Shown here piece by piece: positions 2,067-54,352 of a stretch of DNA of 64,000 nucleotides. The position numbers and the translations under genes are program-made. How positions within the stretch are numbered: the stretch's first letter is position 1; each line of letters starts with the position of its first letter. Origin of the DNA: Akkermansiaceae bacterium (GTDB lineage Bacteria > Verrucomicrobiota > Verrucomicrobiia > Verrucomicrobiales > Akkermansiaceae); the NCBI GenBank assembly GCA_903934285.1, contig CAIZNN010000102.1, positions 1-64,000 of the forward strand. The letters are read 5' to 3'. The notes under the pieces are model-generated. The model was not told the DNA's origin and ran no database searches. It saw nothing but the letters and a program-made list of their open reading frames with translations.

Positions 2067-2281
2067 CGGCGTGAACTTAGCCCACGCTACCTTAAGACGA
2101 CGTGAAGCTGGCAAGTATTCCTGCATGACAATCCGATCTTACCGACCGCGGCGGGCTTTGGCAATTTTTCGCTTTGCCTTCATAGCAGCTTAAGGTTGCG
2201 CGGGGCAGATCGCCACCCCGGCACTTTTCCGCCTGTCCAAACCCCGCCACCAGGGAGTATGGATTGGCCGGGCATCCCCGC

Positions 2282-2452
2282 ATGAGAATTCTGCTCATCG
2301 AAGACGAAGCCGATCTGCTCGCGAGCCTGGCCAAGGCGCTGCGCGAGGAAGGCTACGCCGTGGATACGGCGGCGGACGGCGAGGATGGCCGCTTTAAAGC
2401 CCAAAGCTGGGACTACGACGCTGTTGTGCTCGACGTGATGCTGCCGCGCCTG
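2282..2452 (+). pseudogene. Truncated response-regulator receiver domain
   Basis: The ATG at 2282 opens 'MRILLIEDEADLLASLAKAL', the beta1/alpha1 of an OmpR-type receiver with its acidic pocket (EDE). It continues to 'DAVVLDVMLPRL', which includes the phosphoryl-accepting Asp. At that point, where 'DG' and the rest of the receiver should follow, similarity ends and unrelated sequence runs to a stop at 2635. The second half of the receiver and the DNA-binding domain are gone. The break lies about 80 bases from a palindromic repeat (2531-2555). Confidence 0.75.
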
Positions 2453-2530
2453 GAAGCGGCAAATGAAACCTATCACCTTGCGCAGCGCGGACATCTGACC
2501 GCTCTTCGAGGTCATCGTCCGGGCGGTCAA

Positions 2531-2555
2531 GAATGCGGACTCAAGTCCGCGCTCC
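2531..2555. repeat. Palindromic repeat (family A, copy 1)
   Basis: Hairpin GCGGAC-TCAA-GTCCGC followed by GCTCC. Two further copies with the same layout but different stem bases occur at 48321-48345 and 51284-51308, all in the same orientation. Copy 1 sits in the junk between the broken response regulator and the following operon. Confidence 0.7.
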
Positions 2556-2658
2556 AGCAGCCGGTTCCCAACACAAGCTCCGGGATTTCTTCGGAAACAT
2601 CCAAAAATTCTTGGCGCAGGCGGCCAAATGAGTAATCTATCTGCAAAGGAGGTCCCCC

Positions 2659-29672: not shown

Positions 29673-29897
29673 TTATTTGCGGTTTTTCAGCGAAATCCCG
29701 ATCTCCCGGCCGCCGCAGGTTCGGCCTGCGATGCCCACCATCGCGGCGCGGCCGTGGATTGCCGCCCGCAAGCGCATCGGGGCGGCGCGGCTCAGCGCGT
29801 GGTCGGCGGGCGCCAACTCGGCGGTGAGTTGGAACCCGTCGCCAGCGGCGGCCACGGCATACCGGTAATGGTGAATCCCCCCCTCCGGCCACCTCAC
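29673..29897 (-). CDS. Small ORF, perhaps the 3' remnant of a gene interrupted by the RAYT
   Basis: A 74-residue frame from a GTG at 29895-29897, whose bases overlap the stop of the RAYT gene (GTGA). The protein 'YRYAVAAAGDGFQLTAELAP...MRLRAAIHGRAAMVGIAGR' looks like genuine coding, with alternating hydrophobic strands, but has no normal N-terminus. The copy of the RAYT end at 42216 shares sequence only up to about the GTG, so the element boundary lies there. I infer that the RAYT landed in, or next to, an older gene. Weak evidence for expression. Confidence 0.35.
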   Translation of the reverse strand: MRWPEGGIHHYRYAVAAAGDGFQLTAELAPADHALSRAAPMRLRAAIHGRAAMVGIAGRTCGGREIGISLKNRK

Positions 29898-30994
29898 CCA
29901 ATCCCCTTCTGCAAATCCCTAACACTCCACAACACCCCGGCGGCGGCGGCCGCGTGGCCCCGCAGTTTCCTCGCCCCGCTCACCCGCTTCTCCCCGAACC
30001 GGTCCCGGCATGCCCGAAACACCCCGTCCACAAATGCACGACTCCCGATCACCGCCCCATCCGAAAAATACCTGACCCGCAACCGCAGCATCTTGCCCAG
30101 CGCCACATCCCGGCTCCGCTCAAGTTGTGTCAACTCCGCCTCCACTGCTTCTTTCTTCATTCCCTTCCTGACCACCTTCACTGCCAGTTTGCCGTCCCCG
30201 CCCGCCACCTCCTGCAACTTCTCCTCACCTTCCGCTAACAATAGCATCCGGTACTCCTTCGACACATTGCCCGCCCAGTGCCGCGCGTCCGCAGAATAGC
30301 CCTTATGTGCCATGATCGCCCGCACCAAGCCCGCGCGCGCCTTCTTGCCATTGCCGCGTGGCCCGCCGCCCATCGCCTCCCCATAACTGCTCCAGCGATA
30401 CTCCCCGGGATCCGCCACCATCCCCGCCCTAACCGGGTTTAAGTCGATATATGCCGCCATCGTGCGCGATGCCACCCCGTCTTCCACCAGCACGCTCTTG
30501 AACGCGTCCTCCCACAACCCGCCGCTGCGCCCGTGCTTGCGATTGTGCCATTGTGTGAAGCGCTGCAGCAACCCTTTCATGTATTCGCTCAAATCGTGCA
30601 TCCGGTAGCTGTAGCGCTCGTGCAATTCCCGCGCCAACGACTCGTTAGCCAGCCCGGCCGTCACCTGCTGCCGCACTTCCGCCAACTCCTTCGCCACCAC
30701 GCCCACCGCCGCCTGGTTGTAGATGCACCGCAGCCGTTGCAGCAACTCCCTGTCCGACAAGCCGCCCGCCGGCAACGGTGGCACCTCCAGCAGCAGGTGA
30801 AGATGATTGCACATGAAGCAATACGACAGCACCCGGCACCCGGAAAAATTTTCGTACATCCGCATGTAGGTCCGCAGTTGCTCCTTGTCCTCCTTCCCGA
30901 ACGCAAACCGCCGGTCCACCACCCGGCTCACGCAATGGTATATCACGGGCTTCTCCGTCGAGTCCTTCCACGGCGCAATGAATCGAGCACGCAT
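29894..30994 (-). CDS. REP-associated tyrosine transposase (RAYT, TnpA_REP)
   Basis: A 366-residue HUH single-strand transposase of the Y1/IS200-related domesticated class. The HUH pair is in 'LSYCFMCNHLHLLLEV', and a candidate nucleophile Tyr is in 'HDLSEYMKGLLQRFTQWHN'. Family blocks 'GGLWEDAFKSVLVED' and 'AAYIDLNPVRAGMVADPGEYRWSSYGEAMGG' are clear. An extra C-terminal region of about 120 residues is present. The ATG at 30992-30994 is preferred over the TTG at 31015, which lies inside the first repeat unit. RAYTs mobilise or maintain short palindromic or REP-like repeats. Here tandem repeats begin six bases upstream and a deleted relative lies at 42216-42440. Confidence 0.9.
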   Translation of the reverse strand: MRARFIAPWKDSTEKPVIYHCVSRVVDRRFAFGKEDKEQLRTYMRMYENFSGCRVLSYCFMCNHLHLLLEVPPLPAGGLSDRELLQRLRCIYNQAAVGVVAKELAEVRQQVTAGLANESLARELHERYSYRMHDLSEYMKGLLQRFTQWHNRKHGRSGGLWEDAFKSVLVEDGVASRTMAAYIDLNPVRAGMVADPGEYRWSSYGEAMGGGPRGNGKKARAGLVRAIMAHKGYSADARHWAGNVSKEYRMLLLAEGEEKLQEVAGGDGKLAVKVVRKGMKKEAVEAELTQLERSRDVALGKMLRLRVRYFSDGAVIGSRAFVDGVFRACRDRFGEKRVSGARKLRGHAAAAAGVLWSVRDLQKGIG

Positions 30995-30999
30995 GTTGT

Positions 31000-31250
31000 C
31001 AAACTGACATCGCAAGCCGCCATGTCAAGAACTTTTTCACAGCAGGAGACTTCACTAGACATCGGAGACTTCACTAGACATCTCAAACTGACATCGCAAG
31101 CCGCCATGTCAAGAACTTTTTCACAGCAGGAGACTTCACTAGACATCGGAGACTTCACTAGGCATCTTCACAGCAGGAGACTTCACTAGGCATCAGAACT
31201 TTTTCACAGTAGGAGACTTCACTAGGCATCAGAGACTTCACTAGGCATCC
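31000..31250. repeat. RAYT-associated repeats: 84-bp tandem duplication plus degenerate units
   Basis: Two 84-bp units (31000-31083 and 31084-31167) differ at one base. Each contains GTCAAGAACTTTTTCACAGC and two copies of GGAGACTTCACTAG. Shorter partial units continue to 31250, giving seven copies of GAGACTTCACTA in total. The same words flank the RAYT remnant at 42369-42440. The array is directly upstream of the RAYT start codon. Confidence 0.85.
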
Positions 31251-47595: not shown

Positions 47596-48897
47596 TCAGA
47601 TAGGGGAGCCCGCCGCCGGCGCCTCGAGGCGTGCGGCGAAGGCACCGTCGGTGGCGTCGCGGAACGGCAGGGCCTGGCGGGTCGAGTGGAGGGTTAGGGT
47701 GGGGTGGGCGGCGAGGAAGGCCTCGATCTGGCCGAGGTTTTCGGCGTGCTCGAGGGAACAGGTCGAGTACACCAGGCGGCCGCCGGGTTTGAGGCAGGGC
47801 AGGGCGTGTTCAAGGATTTGGCGCTGGGTGAGGACGAGCGCGGCGATGTCCGGCACTTGCAGGCGCCAGCGGGCATCGACGCGGCGGCGCAGCACCCCGG
47901 TGTTGGAGCAGGGGACGTCGAGGAGGATGCCATCAAACGCGCCATGCCATTCGGGCGGGGCCGGCTGGGTCCAATCGTGGACGGCAATGGTGGCGTCTGC
48001 GGCGTTGAGGCGCGCGAGGTTTTGGCGCAGGCGGGGCAGGCGCTTTTCGTTAGAGTCGGTGCCGGTCAGGGATTGGGCGCTGCCCAGCGCGGCGGCAATC
48101 AAAAACGCCTTGCCCCCGGGCGCGGCGCAGGCGTCGAGGATGCGCTCGCCGGGTCGCGGGTCTAATAAATCGACGGCGTGGCGGGTGGCGGGGTCCTGGA
48201 TATAGATGGTGCCGGCGGCCAGCAACGCGGTGGGCAGCGCGCCGTCGAGTTTGTAGAAGCCGGGGGCGTTGGCGACGGGGGTGCCGGGGAGAGCGGCGGG
48301 GGAGGCGGGGAGGGAGGGAGACACGCGGGCTGAAGCCCGCGCTCCATCATGCGACACGAGCGGGTTGAGGCGGAAGAAGGTTTCGGCGGGTTGGTTGTTC
48401 CACTCCATCAGGGCGAGGGTGTCGGCTTTGCCAAAGGCGCTCTTCCAACGGTTGTACAGCCAGTCCGGATGCGAGTGGCGCACCGCGGGGGGCAGGTCGG
48501 GCAGCTCGTCTAACAACCGCTTGCGGGACGTGGTGGCGCGGCGCAGCACGGCATTGATCAGGCTGCGCACGTTGGCTTTGCCGGCTTCCACGGTTTCGTT
48601 GACCGCGGCGTGGTCGGGCAGATTGAGAATGAGCAGTTGGCAGAGGCCGACGCGCAGGACATCGCGGGTTTCCGGATCGAGTTTGCCATCGCGGAGTTTG
48701 CCGATCCAGTGGTCTAACAAGCGCCGGTGGCGCAGCACGCCGAAGAGGATGGCTTGCAGCAAGCCGCGGTCCGGCGAGGAGAGTTTGCGGCGCTGGGCGT
48801 GGCGTTCGATGAGGCTTTCGGCGTAATCGTGGCCTTGCGCCCACGCGTGGAGGGCGGAAACGGCGGCTTGGCGGACATGGAAGTTTTTGGCGGGCAT
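47596..48897 (-). CDS. rsmB: 16S rRNA (cytosine-C5) methyltransferase RsmB/Sun
   Basis: A 433-residue methyltransferase that methylates C967 of 16S rRNA (E. coli numbering). The NusB-like N-terminal RNA-binding domain (about 1-135) is followed by the Rossmann catalytic domain: SAM motif 'ERILDACAAPGGKAFLIAAAL', catalytic Cys motif IV 'GILLDVPCSNTGVLRRRVDARW' and motif VI 'RLVYSTCSLEHAEN'. Between them lies an odd insertion, 'SHDGARASARVSPSLPASPAA', encoded by a dispersed palindromic repeat that has entered in frame at 48321-48345. It sits in a linker, so the enzyme is probably still active. Confidence 0.92.
   Translation of the reverse strand: MPAKNFHVRQAAVSALHAWAQGHDYAESLIERHAQRRKLSSPDRGLLQAILFGVLRHRRLLDHWIGKLRDGKLDPETRDVLRVGLCQLLILNLPDHAAVNETVEAGKANVRSLINAVLRRATTSRKRLLDELPDLPPAVRHSHPDWLYNRWKSAFGKADTLALMEWNNQPAETFFRLNPLVSHDGARASARVSPSLPASPAALPGTPVANAPGFYKLDGALPTALLAAGTIYIQDPATRHAVDLLDPRPGERILDACAAPGGKAFLIAAALGSAQSLTGTDSNEKRLPRLRQNLARLNAADATIAVHDWTQPAPPEWHGAFDGILLDVPCSNTGVLRRRVDARWRLQVPDIAALVLTQRQILEHALPCLKPGGRLVYSTCSLEHAENLGQIEAFLAAHPTLTLHSTRQALPFRDATDGAFAARLEAPAAGSPI
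48321..48345. repeat. Palindromic repeat (family A, copy 2), inside rsmB
   Basis: ACAC-GCGGGC-TGAA-GCCCGC-GCTCC, the same layout as copies at 2531 and 51284 but with different stem bases. It is translated in frame as part of the RsmB linker. Confidence 0.8.
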
Positions 48898-49755: not shown

Positions 49756-51153
49756 TCAATGTCCCTGGGGGCGTTCGCGCGGTTCCCATTCGCGGCGGGT
49801 GCGGGAGCGCACCGAGAAGATGATGGGCACGCCGGGGGCGGGATGGGCGGCGCGCATCTGGTTGGTTAGATAGGCTTCATAGCTGTTGGCCATGAGGCGT
49901 TTGTCATTGACGAAGAGGACGATGGTGGGGACAGGGATGATGCTGTATTTCTCGTTGGTGGCGGCGGTGGCGTAGTAGAGTTTGAGGCGGCGGCGCAGTT
50001 TGTTATCGATAGGTGGCGGGGTTTTGTCGAAGGCGGCGTGGAGGATGCGGTTGAGCACGCCGGTGCCGGGGATGTTTTGGGCGCCCTTGCGGATTTTGAG
50101 GGCTTCCTTGAGGACATGGTCCACCGAGCTGCCGGTTTTGGCCGAGCATGCGACAAAGGGCGCGAAGGCGAGAAAGAACAATTCGCGGCGGACGTGTTCG
50201 GCGGCGTGTTCCAAGCGGGCTTTGGCGGGGGTGTCGGGGTGATAGAGGTCGAATTTGTTGAGGGCGATGATGCAGGGTTTTTTTTCCTCGAGAATGAGTT
50301 GGGCGATCTTGCGGTCCTGCGCGGTGACGCCGGTGACCAGATCGATGACGAGCACGCAGAGGTCGGCGCGGCGGATTGCGCGTTCCGAACGCATCGCCGA
50401 GAATACTTCCACCGAATTGTCGCGCTTGCCACGGGGGCGCAAGCCGGCGGTGTCGATCAGGGTGAAGCGCTCGCCTTGGAAGGTGTAGGGCAGGTCGACC
50501 GCATCGCGGGTGGTGCCGGCGATGGTCGAGACGATGGTGCGCTCGTCATGGAGGATGGCGTTGACCAGTGAGGATTTGCCGGCATTGGGCTTGCCGACGA
50601 TGGCGAGCTTGATGCCGACGGCATCGGCGACCTCGGCGATGGCCTCGGTCTCGGCGACCAGCGGGGCGATGGCGGCATCGATTTCGTCGCAGAGGCGGCC
50701 GAAATTGCGGCCGTGTTCGGCGGAGACCAGGATGCTGGAGGTGAAGCCGAGCCGCGCGAAATCCGAGAAGACGGCCTCGTGTTTCGGGTCGTCCACTTTG
50801 TTGATCACCAACAACACCGGCGGCTTGGCCTTGCGCAACTTCTGCGCCAGCGCCTGATCCACCGGCGTCAGTCCGTCCTGGCCATCCACGACTAACAAAA
50901 TCAGGTCGGCCGTTTCCATGGCGATGTCCGCCTCGATGGCGACTTGTGCGCCAAAGCCGTCGTCGATGGTGGCGCCGATGCCGCCGGTATCAATCAGGGT
51001 GCAGGCGTGCACGGTGGCCTTGGAGGGCGCGGCAATCCGGTCGCGGGTGACGCCGGGTTGGTCATGGACGATGGCGATTTTGCGTCCGGCGAGGCGGTTG
51101 AAGAGCGCGGATTTTCCGACATTGGGACGGCCGACGATGGCAACGGTGGGCAT
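49756..51153 (-). CDS. der: Ribosome-assembly GTPase Der (EngA)
   Basis: A 465-residue double-GTPase needed for 50S subunit maturation. The first G domain opens with 'MPTVAIVGRPNVGKSALFNRL', then 'DTGG', 'NKVD'; the second with 'KLAIVGKPNAGKSSLVNAIL', 'DTAGLRPRGK' and 'NKFD'. The C-terminal KH-like domain ends in 'GVPIIFSVRSR', typical of Der. The ATG at 51153 starts the conserved sequence; the 26 upstream codons in the ORF track are Pro/Ser-rich and not conserved. The second GTPase P-loop differs slightly (GKPNAGKSS), within family variation. Confidence 0.96.
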   Translation of the reverse strand: MPTVAIVGRPNVGKSALFNRLAGRKIAIVHDQPGVTRDRIAAPSKATVHACTLIDTGGIGATIDDGFGAQVAIEADIAMETADLILLVVDGQDGLTPVDQALAQKLRKAKPPVLLVINKVDDPKHEAVFSDFARLGFTSSILVSAEHGRNFGRLCDEIDAAIAPLVAETEAIAEVADAVGIKLAIVGKPNAGKSSLVNAILHDERTIVSTIAGTTRDAVDLPYTFQGERFTLIDTAGLRPRGKRDNSVEVFSAMRSERAIRRADLCVLVIDLVTGVTAQDRKIAQLILEEKKPCIIALNKFDLYHPDTPAKARLEHAAEHVRRELFFLAFAPFVACSAKTGSSVDHVLKEALKIRKGAQNIPGTGVLNRILHAAFDKTPPPIDNKLRRRLKLYYATAATNEKYSIIPVPTIVLFVNDKRLMANSYEAYLTNQMRAAHPAPGVPIIFSVRSRTRREWEPRERPQGH

Positions 51154-51283
51154 GGGAGGAGGGGAGGAGGGATGTCGGGGGAGCGGTGAGTGAGGCAGTG
51201 AAGCAGGGGAAGGTCCGGTATTTAGCCGCAAGAGACAAGCGCGGAGAGGGAAAAGAAATGAGGGGCATGGCTTGCGCCCGGGG

Positions 51284-51332
51284 ACACGCCGGCTGGGACC
51301 GGCGCTCCGTGCGCCGGTTGGGGCCGGCGCAC
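51284..51332. repeat. Palindromic repeat (family A, copy 3) plus second hairpin
   Basis: ACAC-GCCGG-CTGGGA-CCGGC-GCTCC at 51284-51308 shares the flanks and layout of the copies at 2531 and 48321. It is followed at once by GTGCGCCGG-TTGGGG-CCGGCGCAC, a perfect 9-bp stem. It lies between der and the tRNA-Asp terminator. Confidence 0.75.
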
Positions 51333-51552: not shown

Positions 51553-52479
51553 TCACGAGAGAGCCGCGACTGCGGCGTCGAGTGAGGCGAGGTCGTCGAT
51601 GGAATGGACGGTGAGGTCTTTGTCGATTTTGCCGAGCAAGCCGGCGATGACTTTGCCGGGCCCGAGTTCGAGGAAATGGCGGTGGCCCAACGAGATGAGC
51701 TTGTGGATCGACTCGGTCCAGCGCACCGAGCCGGTGACTTGAGCTTCGAGCGAATGGCGGATTTCGGCCGCCTCGGACACGACGCTGGCGGAGAAATTGC
51801 AGACGACAGGCAAGGTGGGCGTCTGGAGGGCAACGGTGGCGAGTTGCACGGCGAGTTGCTCTTTGGCGCTCTGCATCAAGCGGGAGTGGTAGGCGCCAGC
51901 GACGTTGAGTTTGATGGCACGGCGGATGCCGAAGTCCTTGGCTTTGGCCACGGCGGCATCAATGCCGGCCACCGTGCCGGAAAGCACGATTTGGCCCGGG
52001 GCGTTGAAATTGGCGACATCGACATCAGCGGCTGCGGCCAAGGCGCGGACCTGGTCCTCGTCGCCGCCGATCAGGGCGGCCATGGTCCCTTGGGTGGCGA
52101 GGCAGGCTGCTTCCATGAATTCGCCGCGACGCGCGACGAGGCGCAGGCCGTCGGCGAAAGAAAACGTGCCGGCGGCGACGTGGGCGGTGAATTCGCCGAG
52201 CGAGAGGCCGGCGGTGGCAACGGGTTGGAGTTGGGGCAGGCGTTCGCGGACCAGGGCCAAGGTCATCAGGCCGTGGAGAAAGAGTGCGGGTTGGCAGCGC
52301 GAAGTTTTGGTGAGTTCCACATCAGGGCCTTCAAACATGATCTCGGAGATGGAAAATCCGAGCGCTTCATCGGCTTGGCTGGCGAGACTGCGTGCGGTTG
52401 CGGAGGACTCCGCCAGATCTTTGCCCATGCCCACTCGTTGTGCGCCTTGGCCGGAAAATAAGAGAACAATTTGGCTCAT
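51553..52479 (-). CDS. fabD: Malonyl-CoA:ACP transacylase
   Basis: A 308-residue transacylase that loads malonyl groups onto acyl carrier protein. The start 'IVLLFSGQGAQRVGMGKDL', the nucleophile 'VATAGLSLGEFTAHVAAG' (S93), the substrate Arg in 'VARRGEFMEAA', and 'GAYHSRLMQSAKEQL' with the catalytic His are all present. Length and end are normal for FabD. It stands alone, with no fabH, fabG or acpP next to it. It precedes tRNA-Asp on the same strand. Confidence 0.96.
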   Translation of the reverse strand: MSQIVLLFSGQGAQRVGMGKDLAESSATARSLASQADEALGFSISEIMFEGPDVELTKTSRCQPALFLHGLMTLALVRERLPQLQPVATAGLSLGEFTAHVAAGTFSFADGLRLVARRGEFMEAACLATQGTMAALIGGDEDQVRALAAAADVDVANFNAPGQIVLSGTVAGIDAAVAKAKDFGIRRAIKLNVAGAYHSRLMQSAKEQLAVQLATVALQTPTLPVVCNFSASVVSEAAEIRHSLEAQVTGSVRWTESIHKLISLGHRHFLELGPGKVIAGLLGKIDKDLTVHSIDDLASLDAAVAALS

Positions 52480-52642
52480 GTCGCCGGAGGTCTAGGGCAA
52501 GGCGCGATGCTTGAAAAGGGGGAAATGCGTCCGGGCGGGGCGGGCGATTGGAAATTTCCTCAAAAGCACGCACGAAAGTGGCAACTTTCCGGGAGTTCGC
52601 GGGTTCCGGTAATGAGTTTAGTAAACGAACCATCCATTTGCC

Positions 52643-54076
52643 ATGAAACCAACACTCCATAGTTTCCGATTGATTCCGGTTGTAGCCGCCGGGTTGCTGT
52701 TTTTTCCGATGACCGCGCCGGGGCAGGATGCGGCTGCAGAGCCCGCCCCCCCGGAAGCCCAGCGCGAGGCGCCTAACCCCGCACGGGTGGAGGCGATGAT
52801 GCGCGAACTGCAGGAACTCCACCGCGCCGGCAAGCACGAGGAAGCACGCCCGATCGCCGAACGGCTCCGGGCCCTTGCCAAGGAGCATCCTCAAATGGCC
52901 GCACGCGTCCACGAGGCCATGAAGCAACAACAAGGCCAAAAGGCCGATCCGCCCAAGGGTCCCGAGGGTCAGCAACGCCCGATGGCCCAGCCGGGACCGC
53001 AGGGACAACAGCATCCGATGGCCCAGCCGGGACCGCAAGGACAACCTCAACCGATGGCCCAGCCGGGACCGCAGGGACCGCCGCAACCGATGGCCCAGCC
53101 GGGACCGCAGGGACAACCGCAACCGATGGCCCAGCCGGGACCGCAGGGACAACAGCATCCGATGGCGCAGCCGGGACCACAAGGACAACAGCAACCGATG
53201 GCCCAGCCGGGACCTCAAGGACAGGAACGCCCGATGGCCCAGCCGAAGCGGGATAGATGGGAGCGCCGCATGGCCCAACCCAAGCCAGCTGGACCACAGC
53301 AACCGATGGCCCAAGCCCAGGCCGGGCGGGCAGGCGGATGGGGTCCGCAGATGGCGCAACCCAATGTGGCGCCAAGGCGCATGATGTTCCGGCGGTCCCT
53401 GCAAGATGGACAGGCGCAACCGATGGCCCAAGCCCAGGCCGGGCGGGCAGGCGGATGGGGTCCGCAGATGGCGCAACCCAATGTGGCGCCGGGATGCTAC
53501 ATGATGTTCCATCGGTCCCAGCAAGGTAGACAAGGGTGTCCGATGGCCCAAGCCCAGGCCGGGCGGGCAGGCGGATGGGGTCCGCAGATGGCGCAACCCA
53601 ATGTGGCGCCGGGACGCAACATGATGTTCCAGCGGCTCTTGCAAGGTGGACAGGGGGGGCGCTTGGCTCAGCCACAACCGGCCCGGCCTAACGTCGCCGC
53701 CGATGCCGCCCAGACCGATAGATCGCCAGTCGCTCGAATCCGGCATTTGCGCCAGGCTGCCGAGCATTTGGCCGCCGCTGGATATCCCGCCTATGCCGCC
53801 AAGGCCAGCAACGAAATCCGCCGCCTGGAAGCGGCACTCAAACAACCGCAGGTGGAAATGAAACAACCGCAGCCGGCCGCACCCGCCCCCTTCGACAAAG
53901 CCGCCACGCGCGCCGCCCCGCGTCGCGATTTCAACCTGCAGCAGCAGACCAAGCCGGCCGCCGGGCGAGCGCCCGATGCCAACGCCGCAATGCTGAACGA
54001 AATGCGCAAGTTGAGCAGCCAAGTCCAACAACTCGGCGCGCGGATGCAGAAGCTCGAAGCACGCGGCACCGAGTAA
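52643..54076 (+). CDS. Secreted Gln/Pro/Gly-rich protein with two kinds of tandem repeat
   Basis: A 477-residue protein with signal peptide (MKPTLHSFRLIPVVAAGLLFFPMTAPGQ) and a short helical region (about 45-95, EAMMRELQELHRAGKHEEARPI). A run of about nine 12-residue repeats of the form PMAQPGPQGQQx follows. Next come three near-identical units of about 40 residues ('PMAQAQAGRAGGWGPQMAQPNVAP' plus a variable piece). The end is helical, with a coiled-coil-like tail 'LNEMRKLSSQVQQLGARMQKLEARG'. The GPQGQ units are collagen-like in composition but lack strict Gly-X-Y periodicity. Probably an extended surface or periplasmic protein. The opposite strand is also open but lacks any protein-like features. 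Confidence 0.75.
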   Translation: MKPTLHSFRLIPVVAAGLLFFPMTAPGQDAAAEPAPPEAQREAPNPARVEAMMRELQELHRAGKHEEARPIAERLRALAKEHPQMAARVHEAMKQQQGQKADPPKGPEGQQRPMAQPGPQGQQHPMAQPGPQGQPQPMAQPGPQGPPQPMAQPGPQGQPQPMAQPGPQGQQHPMAQPGPQGQQQPMAQPGPQGQERPMAQPKRDRWERRMAQPKPAGPQQPMAQAQAGRAGGWGPQMAQPNVAPRRMMFRRSLQDGQAQPMAQAQAGRAGGWGPQMAQPNVAPGCYMMFHRSQQGRQGCPMAQAQAGRAGGWGPQMAQPNVAPGRNMMFQRLLQGGQGGRLAQPQPARPNVAADAAQTDRSPVARIRHLRQAAEHLAAAGYPAYAAKASNEIRRLEAALKQPQVEMKQPQPAAPAPFDKAATRAAPRRDFNLQQQTKPAAGRAPDANAAMLNEMRKLSSQVQQLGARMQKLEARGTE

Positions 54077-54100: not shown

Positions 54101-54352
54101 TTTGGGGTAGACCGCACAGTCCTCTGTGCGGTCTTCAGCAAATGAAGAGCGGGCCGCGAGTGATAATTCAAGCGGCCGAGCCGCATTCGATTGATGGTCC
54201 GCACAGGAACCTGCTAGCGGTTCTTTGGTTGGTGAGCTGCGGGAGGGGAGTGCGAACCGAGTGGGTTCCCGGCGTGCCGGGACGAAGACCGCACAGAGGA
54301 CTGTGCGGAGTACTTGTTAGGCCGCACAGAGGACTGTGCGGTCTACCCCAAA
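54101..54352. repeat. MITE-like element with perfect 31-bp inverted ends
   Basis: The 31 bases at 54101-54131 are the exact reverse complement of those at 54322-54352; about 190 bases lie between. Each arm contains the palindrome CCGCACAG-AGGA-CTGTGCGG, and a third copy of it lies at 54289-54308. The thrS stop codon (TAG at 54343-54345 on the minus strand) lies inside the right arm. No ORF is carried. Confidence 0.88.

Follow-up and report, generated by a model that had tools for sequence, protein, structure and literature searches.

How does a palindrome come to be translated inside a core gene, and how can its two arms change and still pair with each other? These questions are raised by a stretch of 64,000 nucleotides (hereafter the window) at positions 1 to 64,000 of contig CAIZNN010000102.1 (C102), which belongs to an Akkermansiaceae MAG (Verrucomicrobiota; GCA_903934285.1) of 4.8 Mb in 282 contigs. 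A previous sequence-only reading of the window described three same-oriented elements whose stems differ and are largely complementary, and gave them the layout NNNN-stem-loop-stem-GCTCC. All three are found where it placed them and in the same orientation; the functional strand, however, is the minus strand, on which GCTCC turns into a GGAG head followed by C, a 6-nt arm, a 4-nt loop and a second 6-nt arm in each of the three (Table 1). Matches to GCGGGCTGAAGCCCGCGCTCC with up to 3 mismatches number 2 in the window, compared to 0.03 expected from shuffles. Neither the GGAG head nor the link to RAYT transposases had been recognized in that reading, nor that the RsmB insertion is old. Taken together, the observations presented here make it probable that the elements belong to a GGAG-headed family of REP type spread by a RAYT, that one of them was inserted in frame into rsmB long ago, and that pair 3 of its stem has changed in place on the lineage of the window.

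Table 1. Coordinates of the hairpins, the host gene and its insertion in the window
Feature	Position	Strand	Remarks
rsmB, 16S rRNA (cytosine(967)-C(5))-methyltransferase	47596..48897	-	host gene, 433 aa; TIGR00563 above cut-off
Insertion of ~48 bp in rsmB	48304..48351	-	residues about 183-198; relative to element-free relatives; ends uncertain by a few codons
REP-type hairpin GGAG-C-GCGGGC-TTCA-GCCCGC-G	48324..48345	-	translated as part of rsmB; gives residues 185-192, GARASARV
Second copy GGAG-C-GCGGAC-TTGA-GTCCGC-A	2534..2555	-	just beyond the homologous part of a response-regulator fragment
Third copy GGAG-C-GCCGGT-CCCA-GCCGGC-G	51287..51308	-	between der/engA (49756-51231) and a fabD-like ORF (51553-52479)
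Palindrome GTGCGCCGGTTGGGGCCGGCGCAC	51309..51332		adjoins the third copy; no GGAG head; found by eye

The palindrome GTGCGCCGGTTGGGGCCGGCGCAC is possibly a decayed partner element of the third copy. Just upstream of the second element, the response-regulator ORF 2264-2635 (+) has a profile match that covers only the first 57 of 111 positions and looks like a truncated pseudogene.

The repeat family and RAYT genes in relatives

By means of pattern searches and regional fetches, about 45-50 credible copies of the 22-nt core were gathered from the window's genome, which bears out the earlier suggestion of a dispersed palindrome family. The head and loop alone (core GGAGCGNNNNCTTNAG) have 39 matches in this genome versus 1-11 in most congeners, the exceptions being G014 (19), G018 (53) and G020 (27); reversed-pattern controls for these counts were noisy, and the congeners provide the better background. 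All six stem pairs are intact in 34 of the 39 copies, whose selection by head and loop was independent of the stems. The main stems in the window's genome are GCCGGC, GCGGGC and GCGGAC, and further classes (GCTGGC, GCTGAC, GCCGAC and GCAGGC) occur in G014, G018 and G020. Copies in the window's genome are arranged singly or in close pairs, either tandem or inverted, and codon-usage scoring placed 42 of 50 candidates outside genes and six within five genes, the other two being spurious calls. Like REPs, the family consists of short (20-40 nt) palindromes with many dispersed and mostly extragenic copies. However, GTAG or GT(A/G)G heads the 5' foot of REPs, and the copies have GGAG instead, as do the repeats beside RAYT genes in relatives, for which reason the element is filed here as a REP variant.

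Three relatives link the repeats to transposase genes. In G020 (C248) and G014 (C220), inverted repeat pairs flank a Y1_Tnp gene coding for about 190 aa on both sides, as is typical of REPs, while in G018 (C4) a repeat pair is located upstream of the gene only; a second gene of G020 (C526) is enclosed by repeats with the stem GCGGAA. The RAYT gene of these relatives combines the Y1_Tnp domain (PF01797) with the REP_Tyr_transpos signature (NCBIfam NF047646, 96.9 bits for the G014 protein versus a cut-off of 80), and the G014 protein matches a solved TnpA_REP structure (PDB 4er8). Judged by the anatomy of its sequence and by this linkage, the element is a REP-type repeat.

In the window's own genome, no family copies were found to flank a RAYT gene, and the best RAYT shows 38% identity to the G014 protein over most of its length; in the seven closest relatives, no RAYT exceeds 45% identity across most of the G020 protein. 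Family copies lie near Y1_Tnp genes of the window's genome in one close case only (C210, at 199 bp), where the protein, of ~390 aa, is of another type. The family therefore looks orphaned in this genome, with present mobility unsupported, and may be a relict there, unless its cognate transposase is simply unassembled.

Other genes of the same genome were considered as the source. The Y1_Tnp gene at 29894-31015 (-), which codes for a 373-aa protein, was rejected because it falls below the REP_Tyr_transpos cut-off and because the repeats upstream of it are unrelated to the family; these are seven copies of GATGYCTAGTGAAGTCTC located directly upstream, at 31046-31249. RAYT-like genes at C72 and C52 were also rejected, as the adjoining hairpins have other stems. 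Both (G000:C72, L126; G000:C52, L129) have GGAG hairpins of their own with different stems (GGGGACA; arrays of GTGGGCG), so that several GGAG-headed families coexist in the genome.

In-frame copies in rsmB and other genes

The location of one copy in frame in the RsmB linker, as first noted from the window alone, holds. Compared to most relatives, the insertion adds 16 codons in frame. AlphaFold2 assigns pLDDT < 50 to residues 184-198, which lie between two strands; the loop holding the insertion is accordingly predicted to be disordered, and on this model the insertion looks tolerated rather than functional. Among 79 homologues from genome contigs, 77 have a linker of 20-27 residues, and the two longer linkers (L208 in G087 and L240 in G088) both carry the element. 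A decayed copy in G089 (L281) and a remnant in G090 (L277) occupy the same RsmB site in the same frame, whereas the element is absent from this site in G091 and G092/G093. Most relatives thus lack the insertion, but since an element or remnant is found at the same site in these four, it is an old one. In an RsmB tree built with the linker left out, carriers and non-carriers fall into one clade of eight with weak inner support. One gain followed by losses would be the most economical, if not a proven, history.

Six copies are situated inside five genes, according to codon-usage scoring, with GGAG always on the coding strand. Besides rsmB, the hosts are ileS (TIGR00392 above cut-off), a methylmalonyl-CoA mutase small-subunit-like gene, a U32 peptidase/TrhP-like gene with two copies, and purL (TIGR01857 above cut-off). 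With five such genes in one genome, in-frame spread into a core gene can hardly be called unusual, as the sequence-only reading had called it; moreover, intragenic REPs have been described in Opitutus terrae, a member of the same phylum and the richest in GTAG repeats, and in others (PMC3733652). A second in-frame REP site in ileS (L003, L353, L388) is intact in G088 and has a T-G mismatch in G087, and in the window's genome its head and loop are eroded while both GCCGGC arms are kept.

Paired changes in stems

Copies orthologous between the window's genome and G087/G088 were found by anchoring both flanks; G088 is a 12.6-Mb MAG and possibly mixed, and G087, like G089, is a small, incomplete assembly. 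Among the orthologues found, pair 3 is the sole stem difference at rsmB, ileS site 1, the mutase gene (a comparison of two genomes) and both C256 copies. It is G-C in the window's genome and C-G in the relative in all five copies from four loci, which amount to fewer than five independent cases if a single process acting across the genome produced them all. In a simulation, two random stem substitutions left 6/6 pairs in 3% of cases. Unpaired differences also occur (in the C9 pair, at ileS site 2 and in rsmB of G089), and the comparison of C80 with G092 was left out because of two candidate partners. The new point emerging from these alignments is that a stem difference between orthologous REP copies can involve both arms in a matching way. 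The data make chance unlikely, as well as simple re-insertion at rsmB. At rsmB, G087, G088 and the remnant of G090 all have an arm of CCGG type, and in G089 a CTGG arm faces a CCGG partner; the form in the window is therefore most likely derived.

The bases next to the stem bear on how the change came about. Base 22 stays G in the rsmB and mutase copies, and is C or A in 17/19 GCGGGC copies; the rsmB tail TGTCTCC is common to the window and G087, and reads TATCTCC in G089. Retention of G22 at rsmB and in the mutase gene favours change in place, presumably by template-switch correction of one arm or by compensatory mutation, over replacement of the old REP, whether by gene conversion from another copy in the genome or by excision and renewed insertion at a favoured target site. 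Such replacement appears unlikely on balance. Donors with the GCGGGC stem are present in the window's genome, and gene conversion among REPs was reportedly proposed in a paper by Higgins in 1988; yet these donors almost never have G22, the rsmB tail is common to G087, and a conversion tract would need to end <=3 bases from the swapped pair. Base 22 differs too at ileS site 1 and C256, as do the next 15-20 bases, so that replacement may apply to these loci.

A second alternative is that the rsmB copies represent independent insertions at one hot spot in different species, each with its own stem class. The nesting of non-carriers among carriers in the RsmB tree and the different stem classes of the rsmB copies would agree with this, as would the preference of TnpA_REP for particular dinucleotides when cleaving REPs (PMC8266576). 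Nevertheless, position, orientation and frame are identical in five genomes, and the 3' tail is common to the window, G087 and (as TATCTCC) G089, which leaves this explanation improbable.

Stem covariation was examined in 51 distinct sequences, comprising copies from eight clade genomes and variants from G014, G018 and G020, nearly all of which were picked by the exact core (one, of GCGGAA type, came from a RAYT flank). Standard pairs make up 92.2% of cells in the six-pair stem versus 80.4% after shuffling, and 39 cells are double-changed versus 14.9; none of 500 shuffles, nor any slid control, reaches the observed covariation, which confirms on collected copies what had been suspected from three. 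In 153 exact-core copies, the signal is concentrated in two pairs: pair 3 is Watson-Crick in 71%, where the column composition predicts 38%, and pair 5 in 91%, where it predicts 76%. Compensatory changes in REPIN hairpins inside one genome have already been published (PMC3116915). Strong covariation might also indicate that the host selects for the hairpin, as a functional RNA or as a site where a protein binds, rsmB mRNA included, and REPs do serve their hosts in other bacteria (PMC2817692, PMC3733652), but considering that close relatives have lost the element from rsmB or keep it in eroded form and that copies in unrelated genes and spacers do not suggest a site-specific role, we give this explanation a low probability as well. 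Finally, chance GC-rich palindromes or ordinary intrinsic terminators, which the GC-rich genome and the location of two of the three window elements outside intact genes might bring to mind, can be practically dismissed in view of the enrichment over shuffles and most congeners, the exact conservation of head and loop, the RAYT flanking in relatives, the copy inside a gene and the absence of a T-run 3' of all three window hairpins, which rules out terminators.

A proposed history and its parallels

In the history that we prefer, in which the rsmB copy is old and was altered in place, a RAYT-type HUH/Y1 transposase would move or copy the GGAG hairpin as single-stranded DNA within the genus, the hairpin being predicted to be bound and cut in this form. 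One hairpin, whose insertion is visible in the alignment, would have landed in frame in the rsmB linker in the ancestor of eight close species, where ~16 encoded residues would be tolerated owing to the flexible loop, and would later have been lost or eroded in some descendants. On the lineage of the window, pair 3 would then have turned from C-G to G-C in both arms, with head and tail unchanged. Most likely, one arm mutated and the polymerase, switching template within the hairpin, carried the change over to the other arm, or else a second mutation compensated for the first; a fresh insertion would be less likely. Selection or conversion might also have restored the pairing. Template-guided copying, put forward earlier as a possible origin of the covariation, is thus a serious contender as the source of the stem changes, given that the arms of orthologous copies differ in a paired manner, although the mechanism itself is inferred.

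A broader and more tentative idea is that template switching generally copies arm mutations, thereby keeping REP stems perfect even in genes that have no use for the element. If true, the stem covariation of REPs, a kind of evidence commonly taken as proof of selected structure, would mostly reflect mutation rather than selection, and a REP inside a gene would make that part of the host protein a hotspot for amino-acid changes in pairs. Gene-trapped REPs offer aligned sites at which the arms change jointly without an obvious function of the hairpin, so that template switching, gene conversion and selection can be tested against each other with more genomes.

Template-switch (quasipalindrome) mutation is known to alter the two arms of an inverted repeat in a matching way in a single event, coding DNA included; the published cases come from RNA genes, yeast genes and nematomorph mitochondria (PMC8794818, PMC8604942, PMC6649704), whereas the present case concerns REP hairpins. 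In each of the five pair-3 swaps, the two arms may have changed together or one after the other. A full-text search of a limited literature collection found no paper joining REP terms with "template switching". With the REPtrons of REP and RAYT (TnpA_REP) (Nunvar 2010, PMC2817692; PMC8266576), the family shares a short imperfect palindrome, a conserved tetranucleotide at the 5' foot, many copies, tandem and inverted clusters and, in relatives, a flanked HUH/Y1 RAYT gene; it differs in its head (GGAG rather than GTAG or GT(A/G)G) and in that the window's genome has no close RAYT. The intragenic GTAG REPs of Opitutus terrae (PMC3733652) likewise lie in frame in conserved genes and are tolerated by loops or disordered regions, but here one intragenic copy has been traced across related species with both arms changing together. 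Rickettsia palindromic elements (RPE), likened here by description only, are also palindromes translated in frame in protein genes, RPE-1 being longer than the present elements (PMC3733652). GGAG-headed RAYT repeats and in-frame REP insertions are now extended to Akkermansiaceae.

A loose scan of the window for GGAG or GTAG returned many hairpins that are attributable to chance. At 52367-54031 (-) there is a candidate ORF with a long tandem repeat of type LGHRLRLSLRSR. Between 54107 and 54345, GTAG-headed hairpins GTAGACCGCACAGTCCTCTGTGCGGTC stand inverted at a distance of about 240 bp; together with another copy of the hairpin near 54289-54309, they constitute a second REP-like family with the canonical head.
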